Positions 37,573 to 48,463 of a stretch of DNA of 64,000 bases are shown in pieces. The stretch spans positions 1 through 64,000 of the forward strand of contig JALEOH010000039.1 of assembly GCA_022766605.1 (NCBI GenBank), given 5' to 3'. The position numbers and the translations under genes are program-made. The first letter of the stretch is position 1. Every line of letters begins with the position of its first letter. This DNA comes from Ezakiella sp. (GTDB taxonomy: Bacteria > Bacillota > Clostridia > Tissierellales > Peptoniphilaceae). Under the pieces are notes generated by a model. It was not told the DNA's origin. It searched no databases and was given only the letters and a program-made list of their open reading frames with translations.

Positions 37573-38817
37573 TTATGGATATAATTTATCCAGCACTTCA
37601 ATTATTGCAATCTTTATTTGTTCGTAAGTTAGTCCGCCTTGAAAATATGCGGCATATGGTTCTCTCATGGGTGCATCTGCTGAAAGCTCGATGCTCGAAC
37701 CATCGATAAATGAAGGGCTAGCCATTATAACTTGATCTTCATAGCCTGGCATATCCCATGCTGTTGGGATCGCCTTACTATCAACTGCCCCCGCTTCTTG
37801 TATTGCAATGGCATATTTTTTTAACAGCTCGGGATCTTTAAAGATTATAGTTTGCACTATATCACTTCTTTTATCCCCGATTTTTGGTATAGTATCAAAT
37901 CCGAGATTGCTAAAAACCCTTTGCATTAAATATGCACCTTTTAGAGCTTCTTTTACTATATGAGGAGCAAGAAAAAGTCCTTGAAGAGTTAGTCTTGTAG
38001 TATTAAAAGATAGACCAACCTCTTTGCCTATTCCCGGTGCAGTTAATTCATTGGCACACTTTTCTATCAGATCTTTTCTTCCAACTATATATCCACCACT
38101 AATTGCTATGCCGCCACCTGGATTTTTTATAAGCGAACCAGCTACAATATCAGCGCCTGCATCACTTGGCTCACGTTTGGAGGTAAATTCTCCATAGCAA
38201 TTGTCGACAAATATTATTATATTTGAATCAATTGATTTTACATATTTTATTATATCCTCTATCTCTTCTGTGGTAAAAGCATTTCTTAAAGAATAGCCGG
38301 TTGACCTTTGGATGGCAACGACTTTTGTCTTGTTGCTAATAAGTTTCTTAATCTCATCTTTTTGCATTTTCCCTTTATCATCTAGTGGAGCGATTTTAAT
38401 ATCTACTCCCCTTTCTTTTAAGCTTCCTACCTCATTTCCGATAATACCCGTTGCCTTTTGCATAGTGTCGTATGGAAGATCACTTGCAAAAATCAATTCG
38501 TCACCATAATTTAAAATGGATTTTAAAGATAGATAAATGGCATGTGTGCCAGATGCGATACTCGGTCTTACAAGTGCATCTTCAGTATGAAAAATATTTC
38601 TATATATAGCCTCTACTTTTTCACGACCAATATCACCATAGCCATATCCTGTTGGCGAAAAAAAATCGGTTGAGCTGAGATATTCAGCCTGCATCGATTT
38701 GATTACTTTATATTGATTTATAAGAGCTAGTTCATCTAGATTATTGAAGTCCCCCACTAACTCCTTTTCAGCATCTAATACCAATTTATAATGTTTTGAA
38801 TTAAAAAGTTCAATCAT
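37573..38817 (-). CDS. Methionine gamma-lyase family PLP enzyme (YnbB / aluminium-resistance-like)
   Basis: 414 residues of the YnbB group of fold-type I PLP enzymes. It has the tell-tale F-x-P-T-G-Y-G-Y-x-D-x-G-R-E-x-x-E, R-P-S-I-A-S-G-T-H-A, and the likely PLP lysine in G-S-L-I-K-N-P-G-G-G. True substrate is not established for the family; the names methionine gamma-lyase and aluminium resistance are historical. AAGGAGA precedes the ATG, which overlaps miaA. Association with miaA-mutL-mutS is common in clostridia; hfq, often placed here, is absent. Confidence 0.85.
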   Translation of the reverse strand: MIELFNSKHYKLVLDAEKELVGDFNNLDELALINQYKVIKSMQAEYLSSTDFFSPTGYGYGDIGREKVEAIYRNIFHTEDALVRPSIASGTHAIYLSLKSILNYGDELIFASDLPYDTMQKATGIIGNEVGSLKERGVDIKIAPLDDKGKMQKDEIKKLISNKTKVVAIQRSTGYSLRNAFTTEEIEDIIKYVKSIDSNIIIFVDNCYGEFTSKREPSDAGADIVAGSLIKNPGGGIAISGGYIVGRKDLIEKCANELTAPGIGKEVGLSFNTTRLTLQGLFLAPHIVKEALKGAYLMQRVFSNLGFDTIPKIGDKRSDIVQTIIFKDPELLKKYAIAIQEAGAVDSKAIPTAWDMPGYEDQVIMASPSFIDGSSIELSADAPMREPYAAYFQGGLTYEQIKIAIIEVLDKLYP

Positions 38818-39730
38818 TTTCTCTCCTTATCATATTTAAAATATCATTTATTTCATTTTCTTCTACATCGATGAACTTTGCATTGGGATCATTTCTAAAC
38901 CATGTTAGCTGTCTTTTAGCATAGTTTCTACTATGTTGTTTAATCTTTTCAACAGCAAATTCATAGTCCCATTCATTGTTCAAATATTTTATAAGTTCAC
39001 TGTATCCAATTGCCTGCATAGATTGAGCATTTGGATCAACACCTAATGCCAATATGCCTTTTAATTCGTCTAAAAGACCATTTTTAAGCATTATATCCAC
39101 TCGCCTATTGATTATATCATATAAATGCTTTCTATCTCTTATTAAGGCATATAATTTCCAATTGTATTTTGAATTATCTTTTCTAAATTGATTTTCTCTT
39201 AATGAAAAAGCCTTGCCAGTACATAAATAATACTCGAGCGCTCTTATATTTCTCTTAATATCATTTTCATGAATTCTATCATATGAAAGTGGGTCTACTC
39301 TTTTTATTTCAGATCTAATATATTGAATGCCATATTTATCCAGCTTATTATAAAGTTCTTTTTTTATATCTTCATTTGAATTATTCGAATCTAAATCGAG
39401 TCCATATATGATTGAATTGATATATAGTCCTGTGCCACCTACCATTATCGGAATTTTATTTCTATTATATATTTCTTGAATGATTTCTTCAGCCATGATT
39501 TTATATTCTTTAACCGAAAAGCTCTCGCTTGGATCTACGATATCTATCATATGATGAGTTATGCCATCCATTTCATCACTTTTAATCTTAGCTGTCCCAA
39601 TATCCATATGCCTATAGATTTGCATGCTATCACAAGAGATAATTTCACCATCTAGCATTTTTGCAAGTTCGATGCTTAATTGACTTTTGCCAACGCCAGT
39701 TGGACCTGAAATTATAATTAATTTATTCAT
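38810..39730 (-). CDS. miaA: tRNA dimethylallyltransferase MiaA
   Basis: 306 residues. Adds dimethylallyl to A37 of tRNAs that read UNN codons. P-loop G-P-T-G-V-G-K-S, D-S-M-Q-I-Y-R and D-I-G-T-A-K are clear, with W-F-R-N-D near the C-terminus. The frame opens at a GTG at 39739, but AGGTGG five bases before the ATG at 39730 and the ATGA overlap with mutL decide the start. Its product is the substrate of MiaB at 44185. The dimethylallyl donor comes from IspH farther up the same strand. Confidence 0.94.
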   Translation of the reverse strand: MNKLIIISGPTGVGKSQLSIELAKMLDGEIISCDSMQIYRHMDIGTAKIKSDEMDGITHHMIDIVDPSESFSVKEYKIMAEEIIQEIYNRNKIPIMVGGTGLYINSIIYGLDLDSNNSNEDIKKELYNKLDKYGIQYIRSEIKRVDPLSYDRIHENDIKRNIRALEYYLCTGKAFSLRENQFRKDNSKYNWKLYALIRDRKHLYDIINRRVDIMLKNGLLDELKGILALGVDPNAQSMQAIGYSELIKYLNNEWDYEFAVEKIKQHSRNYAKRQLTWFRNDPNAKFIDVEENEINDILNMIRREND

Positions 39731-41607
39731 GATATCCACCTTGTAAATTCTTCTTTAGTAATAACGCTAAATATTACCCTGCCAGTAGGCGAAGTATATG
39801 GATTGTCTGTTGACATTAAAGCTGCAAAAATATTTTTTGCATTAATATCATTATAGAATCTATTAGCATGACTTGAAATTTGAACTATTGATTTAATCAA
39901 ATTGGGAACTAAAAGGCTCTCTTTATTATTTAATTTAATATTATCCAGCAAATCCATTAGATACTCTTCTTTAAATACTTCAGTTAAAGACATCGGGATC
40001 GCCCTTAATACTATTATATCCTCGCCAAGAGTAGTAATATCAAATCCAAGTTGAGAAAATAAATCCTTCGCATTTAAGAATTTTTCATATTCGTCATAAT
40101 TGAGTTTATATTTAATTGGTTCAATTAAAGTTTGAACCGCAAGTTTATTTTTTCTAATATCCTCAGTGTAGCTAGAATATAATATTCTATTTGAGGCTTC
40201 TTTTAAATCAACTACTGACAATAAGTCGTGCGGACGATTTTCAATCAGATAATATCTATTAAATATGACACCTATTGGCTTATTATAAGTCCATAAGCTA
40301 TTTTGTGGAAATAGTTCATATAGATTATAATCGAAGTTAAAATCTGGTTTATTTTCATCGAATTCTAAAGTAATATCTGGAAGATCGATATTTAACTCCG
40401 TTTGCATTGAGTTGAGAGACGATTTAGTAGGTGCTGGTTCGTTTTTTACATAAATATCGCTTGCTCTATAATATGTGGAAATATTTTCTTTAACCCTATT
40501 AAAGCATTTGTCATTGCTATCTTTTATTGTATCGAAATTATATAGCTTATCATCTTCGACATTAAATTCAATATCAGCAATATCATAAGCTTTATTTTCA
40601 GTTATATTTTTAGTAATAATAGACTGATTTATAGCTAATGCATTTACTATATTATTATAAATAAAATCGAGAACTTCTTCTTCATAAATAAATGAAATAT
40701 ATTTTTTTGTTGGATGAATATTAACGTCTATCTCATCTGCTGCAATGTCTAAAAATAAAAAGAATATTGGGCGTTTACCAGCCGGTAATTTATTATTGTA
40801 AGCATTTTCAACTATTTTATATAATTCTGGATTATCCACTAAGCGACCATTTATAAAAAACATTTGATGAACTTTATTATTTCTATAAATTCTATTGTTG
40901 CCAACAAATCCACTTAACTTATATTTATCATCATTATTTATTTCAATTAGATCATTTACTATATCTAGACCATATAATTCAAATATAGTCTCTTTAAGAT
41001 CGCTACTTCCACTTGTATTTAATAAAACTCTTGAGTTGGCTATTAATTTAAAAGATATATCGGGATTGCAGATAGAAAATCTTTCCATTAAATATCTTAT
41101 ACGATTTTCTTCAGTCTTGTCGCTGGCAAGCATATTGAGCCTTACTGGCATGTTTTTAAACAAATCTTTTGCAATCAAAGTCGTGCCAACATTACCAGCG
41201 GCTATTTCCATCGATTTAAACTCACCATAATCATAGTTGATACTATTTGCTATATCACTATCCTTGGTTTTGCTAATGAGATTTACAGAGCTTACATTTT
41301 GTATGGAGTTAAGAGCCTCGCCTCGAAAACCGCGCGTAGTCAATCTATAAATATCATTGAAGTCAATTATCTTTGAAGTATAGTGTTTTTTAAAAGCATT
41401 TTTTAGATCTTCTTTTGCAATACCACTGCCGTTATCTGTAATTCTTATATAGCTTTTACCGCCGGCCATGATATCGACAATTATTGTATTTGCACCCGCA
41501 TCAATAGAATTTTCAACAGCTTCTTTTACTATGGATTCAGGTCGCAAAATGACTTCACCGGCGGCAATTTTTTCAATAGTAATTTGATCTAATTCCTTAA
41601 TCTTCAT
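39727..41607 (-). CDS. mutL: DNA mismatch repair protein MutL with degenerate endonuclease domain
   Basis: 626 residues. The N-terminal GHKL ATPase is intact: K-E-A-V-E-N-S-I-D-A-G-A (E29, N33), D-N-G-S-G-I and T-R-G-F-R-G-E-A-L. A variable linker (about 320-440) precedes the dimerisation domain. Where firmicute MutL has the endonuclease motif D-Q-H-A-x2-E-x4-E, this one reads D-L-K-E-A-S-N-R-I-L-Y-S (from D467). The C-terminal C-P-H-G-R-P is S-P-T-G-R-V (606-611), and the A-C-x-x-S-I-K-A strand is also replaced. The nicking activity is therefore likely lost. GGAGAG precedes the ATG; it overlaps mutS by 11 bases and miaA by four. Confidence 0.92.
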   Translation of the reverse strand: MKIKELDQITIEKIAAGEVILRPESIVKEAVENSIDAGANTIIVDIMAGGKSYIRITDNGSGIAKEDLKNAFKKHYTSKIIDFNDIYRLTTRGFRGEALNSIQNVSSVNLISKTKDSDIANSINYDYGEFKSMEIAAGNVGTTLIAKDLFKNMPVRLNMLASDKTEENRIRYLMERFSICNPDISFKLIANSRVLLNTSGSSDLKETIFELYGLDIVNDLIEINNDDKYKLSGFVGNNRIYRNNKVHQMFFINGRLVDNPELYKIVENAYNNKLPAGKRPIFFLFLDIAADEIDVNIHPTKKYISFIYEEEVLDFIYNNIVNALAINQSIITKNITENKAYDIADIEFNVEDDKLYNFDTIKDSNDKCFNRVKENISTYYRASDIYVKNEPAPTKSSLNSMQTELNIDLPDITLEFDENKPDFNFDYNLYELFPQNSLWTYNKPIGVIFNRYYLIENRPHDLLSVVDLKEASNRILYSSYTEDIRKNKLAVQTLIEPIKYKLNYDEYEKFLNAKDLFSQLGFDITTLGEDIIVLRAIPMSLTEVFKEEYLMDLLDNIKLNNKESLLVPNLIKSIVQISSHANRFYNDINAKNIFAALMSTDNPYTSPTGRVIFSVITKEEFTRWIS

Positions 41608-44185
41608 TACGTATTCTCTCCTTTAGATCATATAAAAAATCAAGTGCTTCCCTTGGACTTAAGCTATCTATATCTAATATTTCTATCTTGTCAATCAATT
41701 CGGAATTCCTATTATCTTTTTCAAGAAAATTGTACTGCATATTTACACTATTTTCACCAACTGATTCCATGATTTTATCCTGATAATTTAACGCTTCTTC
41801 AATTACAACTTCGGGAAGTCCAGCTAGTTTTGCCACATGTATACCATAGCTTTTACTTGTTATTCCCCTTATGACTTTTCTTAAAAAAACTATATCATTG
41901 TTTTGTTCTCTTATAGCGAGAGTTATATTAAATACTCCCTCTAGTTCGCCTTCGAGCTTAGAGAGTTCTTGATAATGCGTCGAAAAAATAGTTTTAGCTT
42001 TTATATTTTTCGCAACATATTCTATTATAGAAAAGGCTATTGCCATTCCGTCATAGGTGCTGGTGCCCCTGCCCACCTCATCAAAAATAATCAGTGAATC
42101 TTTAGTTGCATTATTTAATATCTCTGCTACTTCAGTCATTTCTATCATAAAAGTAGATTTGCCTCGACTAAGCGCATCACTAGCCCCAATTCTTGTAAAT
42201 ATTTTATCTACAATAGACAAATCGGCATAACTAGCTGGAACAAAAGATCCAATTTGAGCCATTAATTGATTTATAGCAATCGTCCTCATATAGGTGGATT
42301 TACCACTCATATTAGGACCTGTTATTATAGCAAATCTATTATTATCATCAAAGATGGCATCATTTGGAATAAAGGATTCTAAATTATTATTTAGTTCAAC
42401 CGTAGGATGTCTTGCATCTTTTAATTCAAGTTTACTATTACTATTAAAATTAGGTCTAATATAATTATTTAATCTTGCCGTCTCAGCTAATGACAATAGT
42501 ACATCGAGCCGTGCAAGATTGTATGCAAGATCCTTTAAACTATTTATATATTCGCTACATTTTAACAATATATCTTTGAATAGATTTTTTTCTAACTCTA
42601 AAACCAATTTTGAGGTATTTAAGACTTTATACTCTATTTCTGATAACTTAGCGGTTGTATATCTTTCAACATTCTTAAGAGTTTGGGTTCTCTTAAATGT
42701 TTCAGGCACCTTATCTATCTGACCTTTTGATATCTCGATGAAATATCCTGCAATTTTATTGTATTTTAGACGTAGAGTTTTTATTTGTGTAATTTCTTTT
42801 AATTCCTTTTCATAGCTTATCAAAATGTCGCTAATATGGCTTGCATCATATCTCAGTTTATCTAGATCTTCATTATATCCTGATCTGATAACATTGCCAT
42901 CACTTAAAAAAACTGGTGCATCGTCATTGATCGCATTAAAGAGTAGATTATATAAATCCAGATGTGGCTCTAGTATAATTTTAGCCATAATTCTATTTGA
43001 GTCATTTTTAAAACTCTCTAATAACTTACTAATAATAGGCACTTTTTCAAGCGAAGCTCTTAGATTTAAAAGATCCCTTGGGCCTGCAATGCCAGAAGCT
43101 ATTTTGGATAAAATTCGTTCGATATCAAAAGTATATTTCAATTCGTTTTTTACAAGCTCGGAATTGATAGAATCCCTATAAAATGATTCAACTAGATCAA
43201 GTCTTTCATTTATTTTATCCATATCTAATAATGGCTTTTCTACTACGATTTTTAATAGTCTTTTGCCCTTTGGAGTTGAAGTATGATCTAAAATATCAAT
43301 TAGCGAGCCTCTTCTCGTTCCATCTATTATGGTCTTAGTAAGCTCTAAATTTTTAATTGTATTTTCTCCAAGATACATATATTCATCGATATTATTAAAA
43401 CTAATTCTATCAAAATGGGATAAATTAAAATTTTTATTATCGACTAGATATTTAAAAAGCAGATATAGATTAGTTACTTGGATTTTATTGAGCTTATCTA
43501 TACTAAAATCAGCCTTAATATTTGCAAGCAAATTCTCTAAAGAGTCTTTATCAATATTATCATCGGCATCTATCACATTTATATTATAATTTTCATTTTT
43601 CAAGATATTATTTATAATGACATGATTAGTAATAATTTCACTTGGTTCAATCAAATTAAGCTCGTCAATTAATTGTATATCATTTTCAGTTGCAAAATCA
43701 TCATTTACTATAAGCTCGCCTGTGGAAATATCACATGATATAAGCGATATAGCTTCTAATTGCGGATTGTAATATAAAGAACTAATATAATTATTTCCAT
43801 CATTATCTAAAAATTCATCGTCAATTATCGTTCCAGGAGTATAGACTTTTACAATCCCACGCTCTACCAAGGACTTACCTTTACTTGGTTCTTCCAGTTG
43901 TTCGCATATAGTTACTTTATATCCATCGTTTAAGAGCCTTTTTATATATTGATTAGCAGCATGAAAAGGCACTCCACACATAGGAGCTCTCTCATCTAAA
44001 CCACAATCTCTACCTGTTAAAGCTAGTCCCAATGATTTCGAAGCTTTTATCGCATCATCAAAGAACATCTCATAGAAATCACCCAATCTATACATCAAAA
44101 TAGAATCCAACGCAGTGGATTTTATATTATAATATTGTTTCATCATTGGCGTAAGATCATCTTTTTTTATATCTTTAAATAGCAT
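41597..44185 (-). CDS. mutS: DNA mismatch repair protein MutS
   Basis: 862 residues, full-length MutS. The N-terminal mismatch motif G-D-F-Y-E-M-F carries the Phe-x-Glu wedge. The C-terminal ATPase has G-P-N-M-S-G-K-S-T, D-E-V-G-R-G-T-S-T-Y-D-G and T-H-Y-Q-E-L. Close to the end is Q-Y-N-F-L, which may be a beta-clamp binding motif. It overlaps miaB by one base (TAATG) and runs into mutL. Confidence 0.95.
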   Translation of the reverse strand: MLFKDIKKDDLTPMMKQYYNIKSTALDSILMYRLGDFYEMFFDDAIKASKSLGLALTGRDCGLDERAPMCGVPFHAANQYIKRLLNDGYKVTICEQLEEPSKGKSLVERGIVKVYTPGTIIDDEFLDNDGNNYISSLYYNPQLEAISLISCDISTGELIVNDDFATENDIQLIDELNLIEPSEIITNHVIINNILKNENYNINVIDADDNIDKDSLENLLANIKADFSIDKLNKIQVTNLYLLFKYLVDNKNFNLSHFDRISFNNIDEYMYLGENTIKNLELTKTIIDGTRRGSLIDILDHTSTPKGKRLLKIVVEKPLLDMDKINERLDLVESFYRDSINSELVKNELKYTFDIERILSKIASGIAGPRDLLNLRASLEKVPIISKLLESFKNDSNRIMAKIILEPHLDLYNLLFNAINDDAPVFLSDGNVIRSGYNEDLDKLRYDASHISDILISYEKELKEITQIKTLRLKYNKIAGYFIEISKGQIDKVPETFKRTQTLKNVERYTTAKLSEIEYKVLNTSKLVLELEKNLFKDILLKCSEYINSLKDLAYNLARLDVLLSLAETARLNNYIRPNFNSNSKLELKDARHPTVELNNNLESFIPNDAIFDDNNRFAIITGPNMSGKSTYMRTIAINQLMAQIGSFVPASYADLSIVDKIFTRIGASDALSRGKSTFMIEMTEVAEILNNATKDSLIIFDEVGRGTSTYDGMAIAFSIIEYVAKNIKAKTIFSTHYQELSKLEGELEGVFNITLAIREQNNDIVFLRKVIRGITSKSYGIHVAKLAGLPEVVIEEALNYQDKIMESVGENSVNMQYNFLEKDNRNSELIDKIEILDIDSLSPREALDFLYDLKERIRNED

Positions 44186-45570: not shown

Positions 45571-47898
45571 TTAATTCTCTTCTGATCCTGTATCTTCTGT
45601 TATATCAAGATCAAGAGCCATTTTCTTTAATTCTCCTAAAATATCACTGTCAATTAATGGATTATCAATTGGCGTTGAGTCCTCTTTTTCTTTTTTAGGA
45701 CCATCTTCAGCTTTTCTTTCTCTTCTTGGACGACGTTCCCTTTCTGGTTTTTCTGGTGCAGTAAGTGCCTTAATGCTTAGAGAAACTCTTTGATCATCTC
45801 TAATATCAGTAATCTTTGCTGAAACTTCTTGGCCTAAATTTAAGACATCTGATGGTTTTTCAATATGCTCATCACAAATTTGCGAGATATGGATAAGACC
45901 ATCAACTCCTTCAATAATATTCACAAATGCTCCAAAATCAGGTAGTGAAACAACCTTTCCAGTTACAGTATCTCCTACCTTATAATTTTCGGTAAATACT
46001 TTCCAAGGATCTTCTTTTAGTTGCTTAATACCTAGTGAAATTCTTTCTTGTTCGCGATCAAAGCTTAAAACTTTGACTTCTATTTCTTCGCCGACTTTTA
46101 AGAAATTCTTAGGATTTCTTACTTTGTTCCAAGAATAGTCAGTTACGTGTACAAGACCATCATAAGCCCCAAGATTAATAAATGCACCAAAGTCGACAAT
46201 TCTTGCAACTGTGCCCTTTATAACCTTGCCCTCTTCAATGTTTGCCCAAAACTCTTCAGTTTCCTTAGCAATTCTCTCACGCTCAAGTCTTCTTCTAGAA
46301 ATAATTGCTTTTCTTCTAGATTTGTCAAAGTCGATTAATTCAACTTCTACAGTCTCACCTACTAGACCTGATAGATTTCTTCTAAATCTGTCATAAGCAT
46401 GACTTGCTGGCATGAAAAGTCTTGCACCTTCATAGTCCGCTACTAAGCCTTTGTTAACTTCTTCTTTGATAGTGGCTTGGAAAGTCTCGTTATTTTCAAA
46501 TTTTTTCTCTAGATCTTCCCAAACTTGAACGTCTTTAATTCTTCTTAGACTCAATACAACATTACCTTCACCATCATCGATTTTAACAATATAAACATCG
46601 ATTTCATCATCTTTCTTAAAATGTTCTCTAGGATCAGTAATGCCTTCTGGTAGCTCATCACGATCTACAATTCCATCTGATCTGAAGCCAATATTTACCA
46701 TGATTTGGTTTTCAGTCACATATAGAATCTTTCCAGGAACAATTTGTCCCCTTCTGATACGTGTGAAAGTTTCTTCCATCATCTCCTGCATTGTGGCATG
46801 TCCAGGTTCTGTAGTTTCGACTGCAGTGTTTGACAATTCTTGTTCTGAAACGTTATTTACGTTTTCTCCATTTGAAACATTTGTTTCTAGTTCGTTTGTG
46901 TTCATAGTGGTATCTCCTTCATTCTCTTGATTAGATTCTGTTACTGTGTCAGTTGGCATATAGCCATCATTCAACTTATCAGTTGGTTCATCCAACCTGT
47001 AACTATCTTGAAGTAATGAATCAAAAACGCCTACTCCACTTGGATTAGAATTGATTTTTTCTTCAATGTTTCCGTCATCGTTGTCCATGTCGTTTAACAC
47101 TCTAACAGCCTCCTCGATTATCCACGATGGAGTTGACGCCCCAGCAGATAATCCAACTATATTATACCTTTTTATTAAGGATAAATCAAGTGAATTTATA
47201 TCTTTTATTAAATAATGTGGAAATTTTCTTTCCAATAATAAGTTTGACAACTCTTTTGTGTTGTTGGAGTTCTCTCCACCAAAAATCAATATGCAGTCAA
47301 CTTCCTTGCTAAGGTCTTCAATTGCTTCTCGTCTATTTCGCGAGGCAGAGCAAATTGTATTTTTTATGATATATTTATCCTTATCCAATGTATCTTTTAT
47401 CTTTAATACAATTTCTTCAGCCTTATTATCATTTAATGTTGTTTGCATTGTAAAAAATAATCTTTTATCTTTGGGCAATAAATCAATATCATCGAGATTA
47501 AAAACAATAAATGCATTATCAACTTGGGATTTTGTGGCCATTACTTCTGGATGATTTGGATCTCCTATAATTACATTTAAGTATCCATCCAATTCATATT
47601 TTTGCATTTGTTTATAAATATTTAATAGCACAGGGCAAGTTGTATCGATTAAGTTATATTTTTTAGATAATTCTTCTTTATATTTTTTATCGGTTCCATG
47701 CGATCTTAAAATTAAATTATCAACTTTAATATCCTTTTTAAAATCTATTATTCCTTTATCATAAAGTGAATCTTGTACATCTTTATTATGAACAAGTTCA
47801 CCCATTATTGCCGTGCTAATATTTGATTTACTCGCCAAATCATATGCTCTTTTTACACCAAAGCAGAACCCCATCTCCTTTGCAAGTTTAACTTTCAT
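45571..47898 (-). CDS. ispH: IspH (HMBPP reductase) fused to ribosomal protein S1
   Basis: 775 residues. Part 1 (about 1-275) is IspH, the last MEP-pathway enzyme. It has cluster cysteines in G-F-C-F-G-V (C12), D-T-T-C-P-V (C88) and I-C-S-A-S-R (C193), histidines in E-L-V-H-N and D-P-N-H-P-E, and S-A-G-A-S-T-P. Part 2 (about 385-715) has four S1 RNA-binding repeats, each with an F-G-A-F-like or equivalent strand, then a Lys/Arg/Glu-rich tail. Between them is an Asn/Glu-rich linker. IspH-S1 fusions are known in clostridia. The start is ATG 47898 with AAGGG nine bases upstream; a TTG at 47904 has poor spacing. An internal ATG at 46905 with its own ribosome-binding site could give free S1. Confidence 0.93.
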   Translation of the reverse strand: MKVKLAKEMGFCFGVKRAYDLASKSNISTAIMGELVHNKDVQDSLYDKGIIDFKKDIKVDNLILRSHGTDKKYKEELSKKYNLIDTTCPVLLNIYKQMQKYELDGYLNVIIGDPNHPEVMATKSQVDNAFIVFNLDDIDLLPKDKRLFFTMQTTLNDNKAEEIVLKIKDTLDKDKYIIKNTICSASRNRREAIEDLSKEVDCILIFGGENSNNTKELSNLLLERKFPHYLIKDINSLDLSLIKRYNIVGLSAGASTPSWIIEEAVRVLNDMDNDDGNIEEKINSNPSGVGVFDSLLQDSYRLDEPTDKLNDGYMPTDTVTESNQENEGDTTMNTNELETNVSNGENVNNVSEQELSNTAVETTEPGHATMQEMMEETFTRIRRGQIVPGKILYVTENQIMVNIGFRSDGIVDRDELPEGITDPREHFKKDDEIDVYIVKIDDGEGNVVLSLRRIKDVQVWEDLEKKFENNETFQATIKEEVNKGLVADYEGARLFMPASHAYDRFRRNLSGLVGETVEVELIDFDKSRRKAIISRRRLERERIAKETEEFWANIEEGKVIKGTVARIVDFGAFINLGAYDGLVHVTDYSWNKVRNPKNFLKVGEEIEVKVLSFDREQERISLGIKQLKEDPWKVFTENYKVGDTVTGKVVSLPDFGAFVNIIEGVDGLIHISQICDEHIEKPSDVLNLGQEVSAKITDIRDDQRVSLSIKALTAPEKPERERRPRRERKAEDGPKKEKEDSTPIDNPLIDSDILGELKKMALDLDITEDTGSEEN
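46905..46919 (-). promoter_or_regulatory. Internal ribosome-binding site and ATG for free S1
   Basis: Within the linker of the fusion, minus strand AAGGAG (46914-46919), 8-base spacer, then in-frame ATG at 46903-46905. Starting here (codon 332 of the 775-residue frame) gives 444 residues holding all four S1 domains and none of IspH. Confidence 0.6.
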
Positions 47899-48463
47899 TT
47901 CCAATATCCCTTATTCGCTGCATGATTAGCTTGCTGAATTTATCATATTTTATTTTTGTGTTTTCATCTTGAATTTCATTTGGATATATCAGATCACCAA
48001 AAATTAATTCAACTTTAGAGAAGAGTTTATAACTCGATCTAATATAAACTGGCGATATAGGTGCATTTGCTTTATAAGCAATTAAGCTTACTCCTGACTT
48101 GCCATCCTCATCTTCTATAGAAGACTTTCTCGTACCTTGCGGAAAAATTCCAAGCGCACCTTCTTCATTTAATACTTTTATACACTGCTTAATAGTGCTT
48201 AATTCCGTAGAGCTTCTATCAACTGGAATCATTTTTATTTTTTTTAGAAACCAACTTACTATTGGATTTTTAAATAGTTCTTTTTTAGACATAAAACTAA
48301 CCTCTCTTGGCAGATTTAAAAACAAAATTATCGGTTCCCAGAAACTTCTGTGATTTGCACATAAAATAACTCTTCCTGTATTTGGGAATTTTTCAAGATT
48401 GATAAATTTAATGTTAAATAAAATATTTGTAAAAAATTTAGCTATGCTTAATATGATTTTCAT
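47888..48463 (-). CDS. plsC: 1-acyl-sn-glycerol-3-phosphate acyltransferase (PlsC) family
   Basis: 191 residues with an N-terminal hydrophobic stretch. It carries the acyltransferase blocks N-H-R-S-F-W-E, V-S-F-M-S-K-K-E-L-F and F-P-Q-G-T-R. The first block is H-x4-E instead of the family H-x4-D, and the third has Q for the usual E. The overall fold and position between cmk and ispH-rpsA, the standard clostridial place, support the assignment, but activity may differ. AAGAGG precedes the ATG inside the cmk end; it overlaps ispH by 11 bases. Confidence 0.85.
   Translation of the reverse strand: MKIILSIAKFFTNILFNIKFINLEKFPNTGRVILCANHRSFWEPIILFLNLPREVSFMSKKELFKNPIVSWFLKKIKMIPVDRSSTELSTIKQCIKVLNEEGALGIFPQGTRKSSIEDEDGKSGVSLIAYKANAPISPVYIRSSYKLFSKVELIFGDLIYPNEIQDENTKIKYDKFSKLIMQRIRDIGNES

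Follow-up and report, generated by a model that had tools for sequence, protein, structure and literature searches.

The window analyzed here is a 64,000-nucleotide stretch of DNA from the anaerobic bacterium Ezakiella (genus code g1), whose genome (G000) comprises 1.33 Mb in 41 contigs and is 99% complete. Within it, mutL lies between mutS and miaA in a run transcribed in the order mutS, mutL, miaA. This order is common to genera that have lost the MutL nuclease motifs and to those that retain them (hereafter lost and intact genera), and no added gene was found in the run in either group. The features relevant to this study are as follows:

38810..39739, minus strand: miaA, lying downstream in the conserved mutS-mutL-miaA run
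39727..41607, minus strand: mutL, 626 amino acids, nuclease motifs lost
41597..44185, minus strand: mutS, intact (TIGR01070, 850 bits)
40633..41607, minus strand: N-terminal GHKL ATPase half of MutL, residues 1-325, intact
39730..40287, minus strand: C-terminal domain of MutL, residues 441-626, predicted to keep the MutL fold (AlphaFold2, Foldseek, VIA)
40174..40209, minus strand: former DQHAx2Ex4E motif, now DLKEASNRILYS, residues 467-478; D467 is all that is kept of the site
40117..40134, minus strand: QTLIEP, predicted beta-clamp-binding motif (QxLxxP), residues 492-497, kept
39859..39888, minus strand: former ACxxxxK motif, now IVQISSHANR, residues 574-583
39775..39792, minus strand: former CPHGRP motif, now SPTGRV, residues 606-611; R610 kept

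The mutL product belongs to the MutL family of GHKL mismatch-repair ATPases: it scores 452 bits against TIGR00585 (cut-off 180), matches Pfam DNA_mis_repair and MutL_C, and contains E29, N33 and DNGSGI, in line with an earlier, sequence-only reading of this locus that had called the ATPase half canonical. The same reading had described the neighboring MutS as intact, and its mismatch-binding FxE motif, Walker A and Walker B are indeed all present. Elsewhere in the window, a 777-residue frame directly upstream of miaB (45571-47904, minus strand) encodes IspH/LytB fused to ribosomal protein S1-like repeats.

The nuclease site of the window MutL

Three motifs hold the metal ions in active MutL proteins, in which the Asp and Arg residues are critical for cutting; changing the active-site Arg to Lys leaves a weaker activity (PMC10366529). 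We aligned the window MutL with B. subtilis MutL (PDB 3GAB) and with its relatives, and found none of the three motifs that characterize the B. subtilis-type endonuclease, i.e., DQHAx2Ex4E, ACxxxxK (ACR) and CPHGRP. In the first, DQHAAQERIKYE aligns to DLKEASNRILYS; residues 465-477 read VVDLKEASNRILY and the metal-site residues are reduced to Asp467, as the sequence-only reading had stated. In the second, the motif aligns without gaps to IVQISSHANR, in which Val575 stands in place of Cys and His580 in place of Lys. This strand had been described as gone; both key residues are replaced, but the stretch is not deleted and forms a helix in the predicted model. In the third, CPHGRP has become SPTGRV, again as described, with P607, G609 and the catalytic R610 retained. 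The alignment thus bears out the loss, and all three motifs are altered, with slightly more remaining than the earlier statement that every endonuclease motif had been replaced would imply. All His and Cys residues of the site are gone, and Asp467 and Arg610 are the sole catalytic residues left.

These changes go far beyond chance, since 29 other genera of the family, like the 23 out-group genomes, show little or no variation in these columns. Nor do they reflect an assembly error, given that the same loss occurs in five further species of Ezakiella.

Distribution and number of losses

We extended the alignment to MutL proteins from 117 genomes of the family and 23 genomes of other families in the order, which served as the out-group. 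The motifs were lost in 50 genomes belonging to eight genera (g1, i.e., Ezakiella, with six of six genomes, and g4, g11, g13, g21, g24, g30 and g56); all motifs were retained in the other 67 family genomes, which represent 29 genera, and in 23 of 23 out-group genomes. No half-way form was seen in either set. Among the intact genera the active-site columns vary little, if at all, and Q468, H469, C575, C606 and H608 are never jointly the consensus in any lost clade. Across the lost species, Asp467 is replaced by Asn in some and the Arg mostly by Lys; A471, Q492, P497, G521 and P538 are retained. The sequence-only reading, which considered one gene, could not have seen that the loss is common to eight genera and seemingly reflects several events.

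No full loss of the motifs was found outside the family in a class sample of 393 genomes. Of the sampled genomes outside the family, sixteen lacked the DQHA pattern: ten had no MutL match, one had a truncated protein and five carried substitutions. We do not count these last five (L167-L171) as further losses, as the DQHA pattern differs only at its Gln, and in some of them at its Ala, and the other motifs are largely kept; they come from other families of the class and include the variants DKHAC, DVHAA and DTHAS. A literature search returned no paper on this MutL loss, the MutL-motif survey of Banasik and Sachadyn (2014; cited in PMC9159922) lying outside its reach.

Damage to repair genes, or their outright loss, also occurs elsewhere in the family, in other genera. 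In G103, mutL (L147) is broken by stops and mutS is broken too; in G117 (L135) and G120 (L140), mutL is split between frames; and G107, which is 98% complete, contains no mutL match.

Two trees were used to count the losses, one inferred from the MutL ATPase half alone and the other from MutS, the MutL ATPase half and MiaA. Both require four changes, i.e., in g1, in g24+g56+g11, in g21 and in g4+g13+g30; the well-supported branches alone force three. The position of g1 differs between the two trees. A single clade of all lost sequences, a group defined after the first tree had been seen, was rejected by an AU test (lnL difference 119, p = 0.0075). On these sequence-based trees, the nuclease site has apparently been lost several times independently in the family; for some of these events, transfer of mutS-mutL between the bacteria could produce the same picture.

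Retained features of the protein

The remaining parts of the lost MutL proteins are well conserved. Columns of the ATPase half that are more than 95% conserved in intact relatives are nearly all unchanged in all lost genera, with exceptions at A37, R242, Y270 and H298. The predicted beta-clamp-binding motif is kept across the lost genera (Q 0.88, L 0.92, P 0.97) about as often as in intact genera. For the C-terminal domain, the AlphaFold2 model (pLDDT 93.7) matched 3kdg (E = 1.6e-12), 3gab, 3ncv and 1x9z in Foldseek, with VIA Z scores of 15-17; both methods group it with the B. subtilis, Neisseria and E. coli MutL proteins. The domain is therefore predicted to have the dimerization and regulatory subdomain fold of MutL, the model being evidence neither for nor against activity.

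We also asked how strongly this domain is constrained. Between close lost pairs, the C-terminal dN/dS ranged from 0.06 to 0.36 (n = 12) with a median of 0.10, lower than in the linker (0.35); the value for intact pairs was 0.045, i.e., about half. The C-terminal domain of the lost proteins is under purifying selection with an omega of about 0.1, and such low values indicate that the domain is needed. In the g24/g56/g11 proteins (e.g., L072 and L080), the old nuclease site carries a new conserved and partly basic pattern (LDhRRAD, FRKGD, YDGK) that is more conserved than the remaining domain, which suggests a new use for the site in this lineage; in Ezakiella, the corresponding region does not exceed the residues around it in conservation.

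To gauge whether repair still works, we compared mutation spectra from fourfold-degenerate differences between species pairs over 80 kb regions. In a mutS-defective Pseudomonas, the spectrum shifted to 97.5% transitions and 0.3% A:T to T:A changes (PMC4316635). In the three lost pairs, transitions made up 35%, 49% and 41% of the differences and A-T exchanges 51%, 31% and 39%; in two intact pairs, transitions made up 59% and 52%. The sites are AT-rich and of old divergence, selection or composition may mask the spectrum there, and the A+T content of the lost genomes is far above that of the intact genomes compared. The three lost pairs showed no excess of transitions at neutral sites, and the same held in a smaller version of the analysis. 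This argues, if indirectly, against a long-standing repair deficiency, and mismatch repair probably still works in the lost lineages.

Possible initiation of repair without the MutL nuclease

Searches for enzymes that might substitute for the MutL nuclease gave no match in G000 to MutH (PF02976, with which an E. coli control does match), Vsr, NucS or EndoV, and G000 contains a single MutL with no second copy. None of these families tracks the loss among genomes. MutH-domain matches above the cut-off occur in only three lost genomes (G025, G133 and G068), each with two adjacent MutH domains; we infer that these are Sau3AI-like restriction enzymes. Matches to NucS_C were likewise set aside, being mostly 40 residues long, in frames mostly of 114-152 amino acids, and found in lost and intact genomes alike. 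MutS2 is nearly universal, and the distribution of MutS2/Smr does not track the loss. D12 (Dam-type) methyltransferases are sporadic in both groups, also without tracking; a strong D12 adenine methyltransferase in G000, outside the window (contig C23:81949-82755), is probably part of a restriction system. MutS, MutS2, RecJ and PcrA are all present. The search covered named families, so a nicking enzyme of another kind would escape detection.

The window MutL has lost the metal-site motifs of its nuclease, and we consider it reasonably probable that it keeps its other functions, coupling MutS to the beta clamp while the nick comes from elsewhere. MutS would load MutL at a mismatch; MutL would then act as a clamp that is driven by ATP and anchored to the beta clamp on freshly replicated DNA, and would recruit a helicase (PcrA/UvrD) and an exonuclease (RecJ) to a break not of its own making. 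That break would most likely be a replication discontinuity, such as an Okazaki end or a ribonucleotide site cut by RNase HII, or else be made by an as yet unrecognized enzyme. The protein would thus behave as E. coli MutL does, as a matchmaker without nuclease, here also without MutH. For bacteria without MutH, natural nicks have been proposed as the starting points of repair (PMC8744996). In Thermus, however, nuclease-dead MutL fails to restore repair in vivo (PMC10366529), so natural nicks alone are insufficient there and something else must differ in the lost lineages. The sequence-only reading had offered three options, i.e., a different nickase, repair that needs none, or a MutL reduced to a clamp-like coupler. 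The coupler is supported by purifying selection on the C-terminal domain, the ATPase and beta-clamp motifs, and the lack of a mutator signature; as to the others, the usual substitutes were not found in G000, and the data do not separate another nickase from pre-existing nicks. Extended to the family, the proposal that the MutL nuclease was repeatedly turned into a pure coupler, with incision by a MutL-recruited nickase or excision from replication discontinuities alone, seems to us evenly poised.

Other explanations must be weighed against this coupler role. It is rather unlikely that the work of the MutL nuclease has passed to an unrecognized nickase brought in by MutL, in the way that it passed to MutH in E. 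coli: that precedent indicates that MutL may lose its nuclease once another enzyme takes over, and the g24/g56/g11 pattern at the old site could be a binding surface, but the known candidates Vsr and EndoV are absent, the MutH-domain and NucS_C matches are discounted, the mutS-mutL run has gained no gene, and the enzyme would have to have been acquired four separate times or been present in the ancestor. A different view is that mismatch repair is decaying in the family and that MutL is functionless and on its way out, for which one could cite the broken genes of G103, the missing mutL of G107 and a C-terminal omega about twice as high in lost as in intact pairs. We regard this as improbable: the fifty lost genomes, from four lineages, have full-length open frames (one interrupted where its contig ends), their omega remains close to 0.1, the ATPase and MutS motifs are unchanged and the beta-clamp motif is kept, neutral sites have no transition excess, and neither G103 nor G107 belongs to the lost genera.

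Continued cutting of DNA by the C-terminal domain through a rearranged active site is very improbable. The window MutL keeps Asp467 and Arg610, two residues that matter for cutting in active MutL proteins (PMC10366529), and weak activity by another metal arrangement is thereby formally possible. Against this, the His and Cys ligands are all gone, Asp467 and the Arg are themselves replaced in other lost species, and the lost clades share no other conserved set of Asp, Glu, His or Cys. The aligned C-terminal domains contain no His or Cys that is conserved within any lost clade, so that a metal site of this kind is unlikely to have moved elsewhere in the domain.

Two types of bacterial mismatch repair are usually distinguished, the MutH type and the MutL-nuclease type. 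Here, sister genera of one family differ in whether the nuclease site is intact or lost; the losses are several, apparently independent of one another and not accompanied by MutH, and they raise the question of how repair starts in the lost lineages. The family thereby makes a long-standing question testable, namely whether nicks in new DNA suffice to direct repair or which other enzyme nicks, and the repeated loss provides a natural experiment for finding compensating genes.

Compared with the B. subtilis-type MutL endonuclease (PDB 3GAB, 3KDG, 3KDK), to which the intact sister genera belong exactly, the window MutL has the same domain order, predicted C-terminal fold, beta-clamp motif position and neighboring MutS, but lacks all three metal-site motifs and shares 21% identity over the C-terminal domain. 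E. coli MutL (PDB 1X9Z, 6E8E) is a nuclease-free coupler, with MutH as the cutter; it resembles the window protein in its GHKL ATPase, its kept beta-clamp motif and a C-terminal domain without nuclease motifs, and the window MutL is likely a matchmaker too. In contrast to E. coli, G000 has no MutH match, Dam-type methyltransferases are sporadic instead of lineage-wide, and the loss is independent and lies inside Bacillota. In eukaryotes, MLH1 is a MutL homologue kept without nuclease motifs, as the non-nuclease subunit of MutL-alpha, and the window MutL is likewise retained without them; however, MLH1 pairs with a nuclease subunit (PMS2/Pms1), whereas in G000 the window MutL was found with no second MutL beside it.
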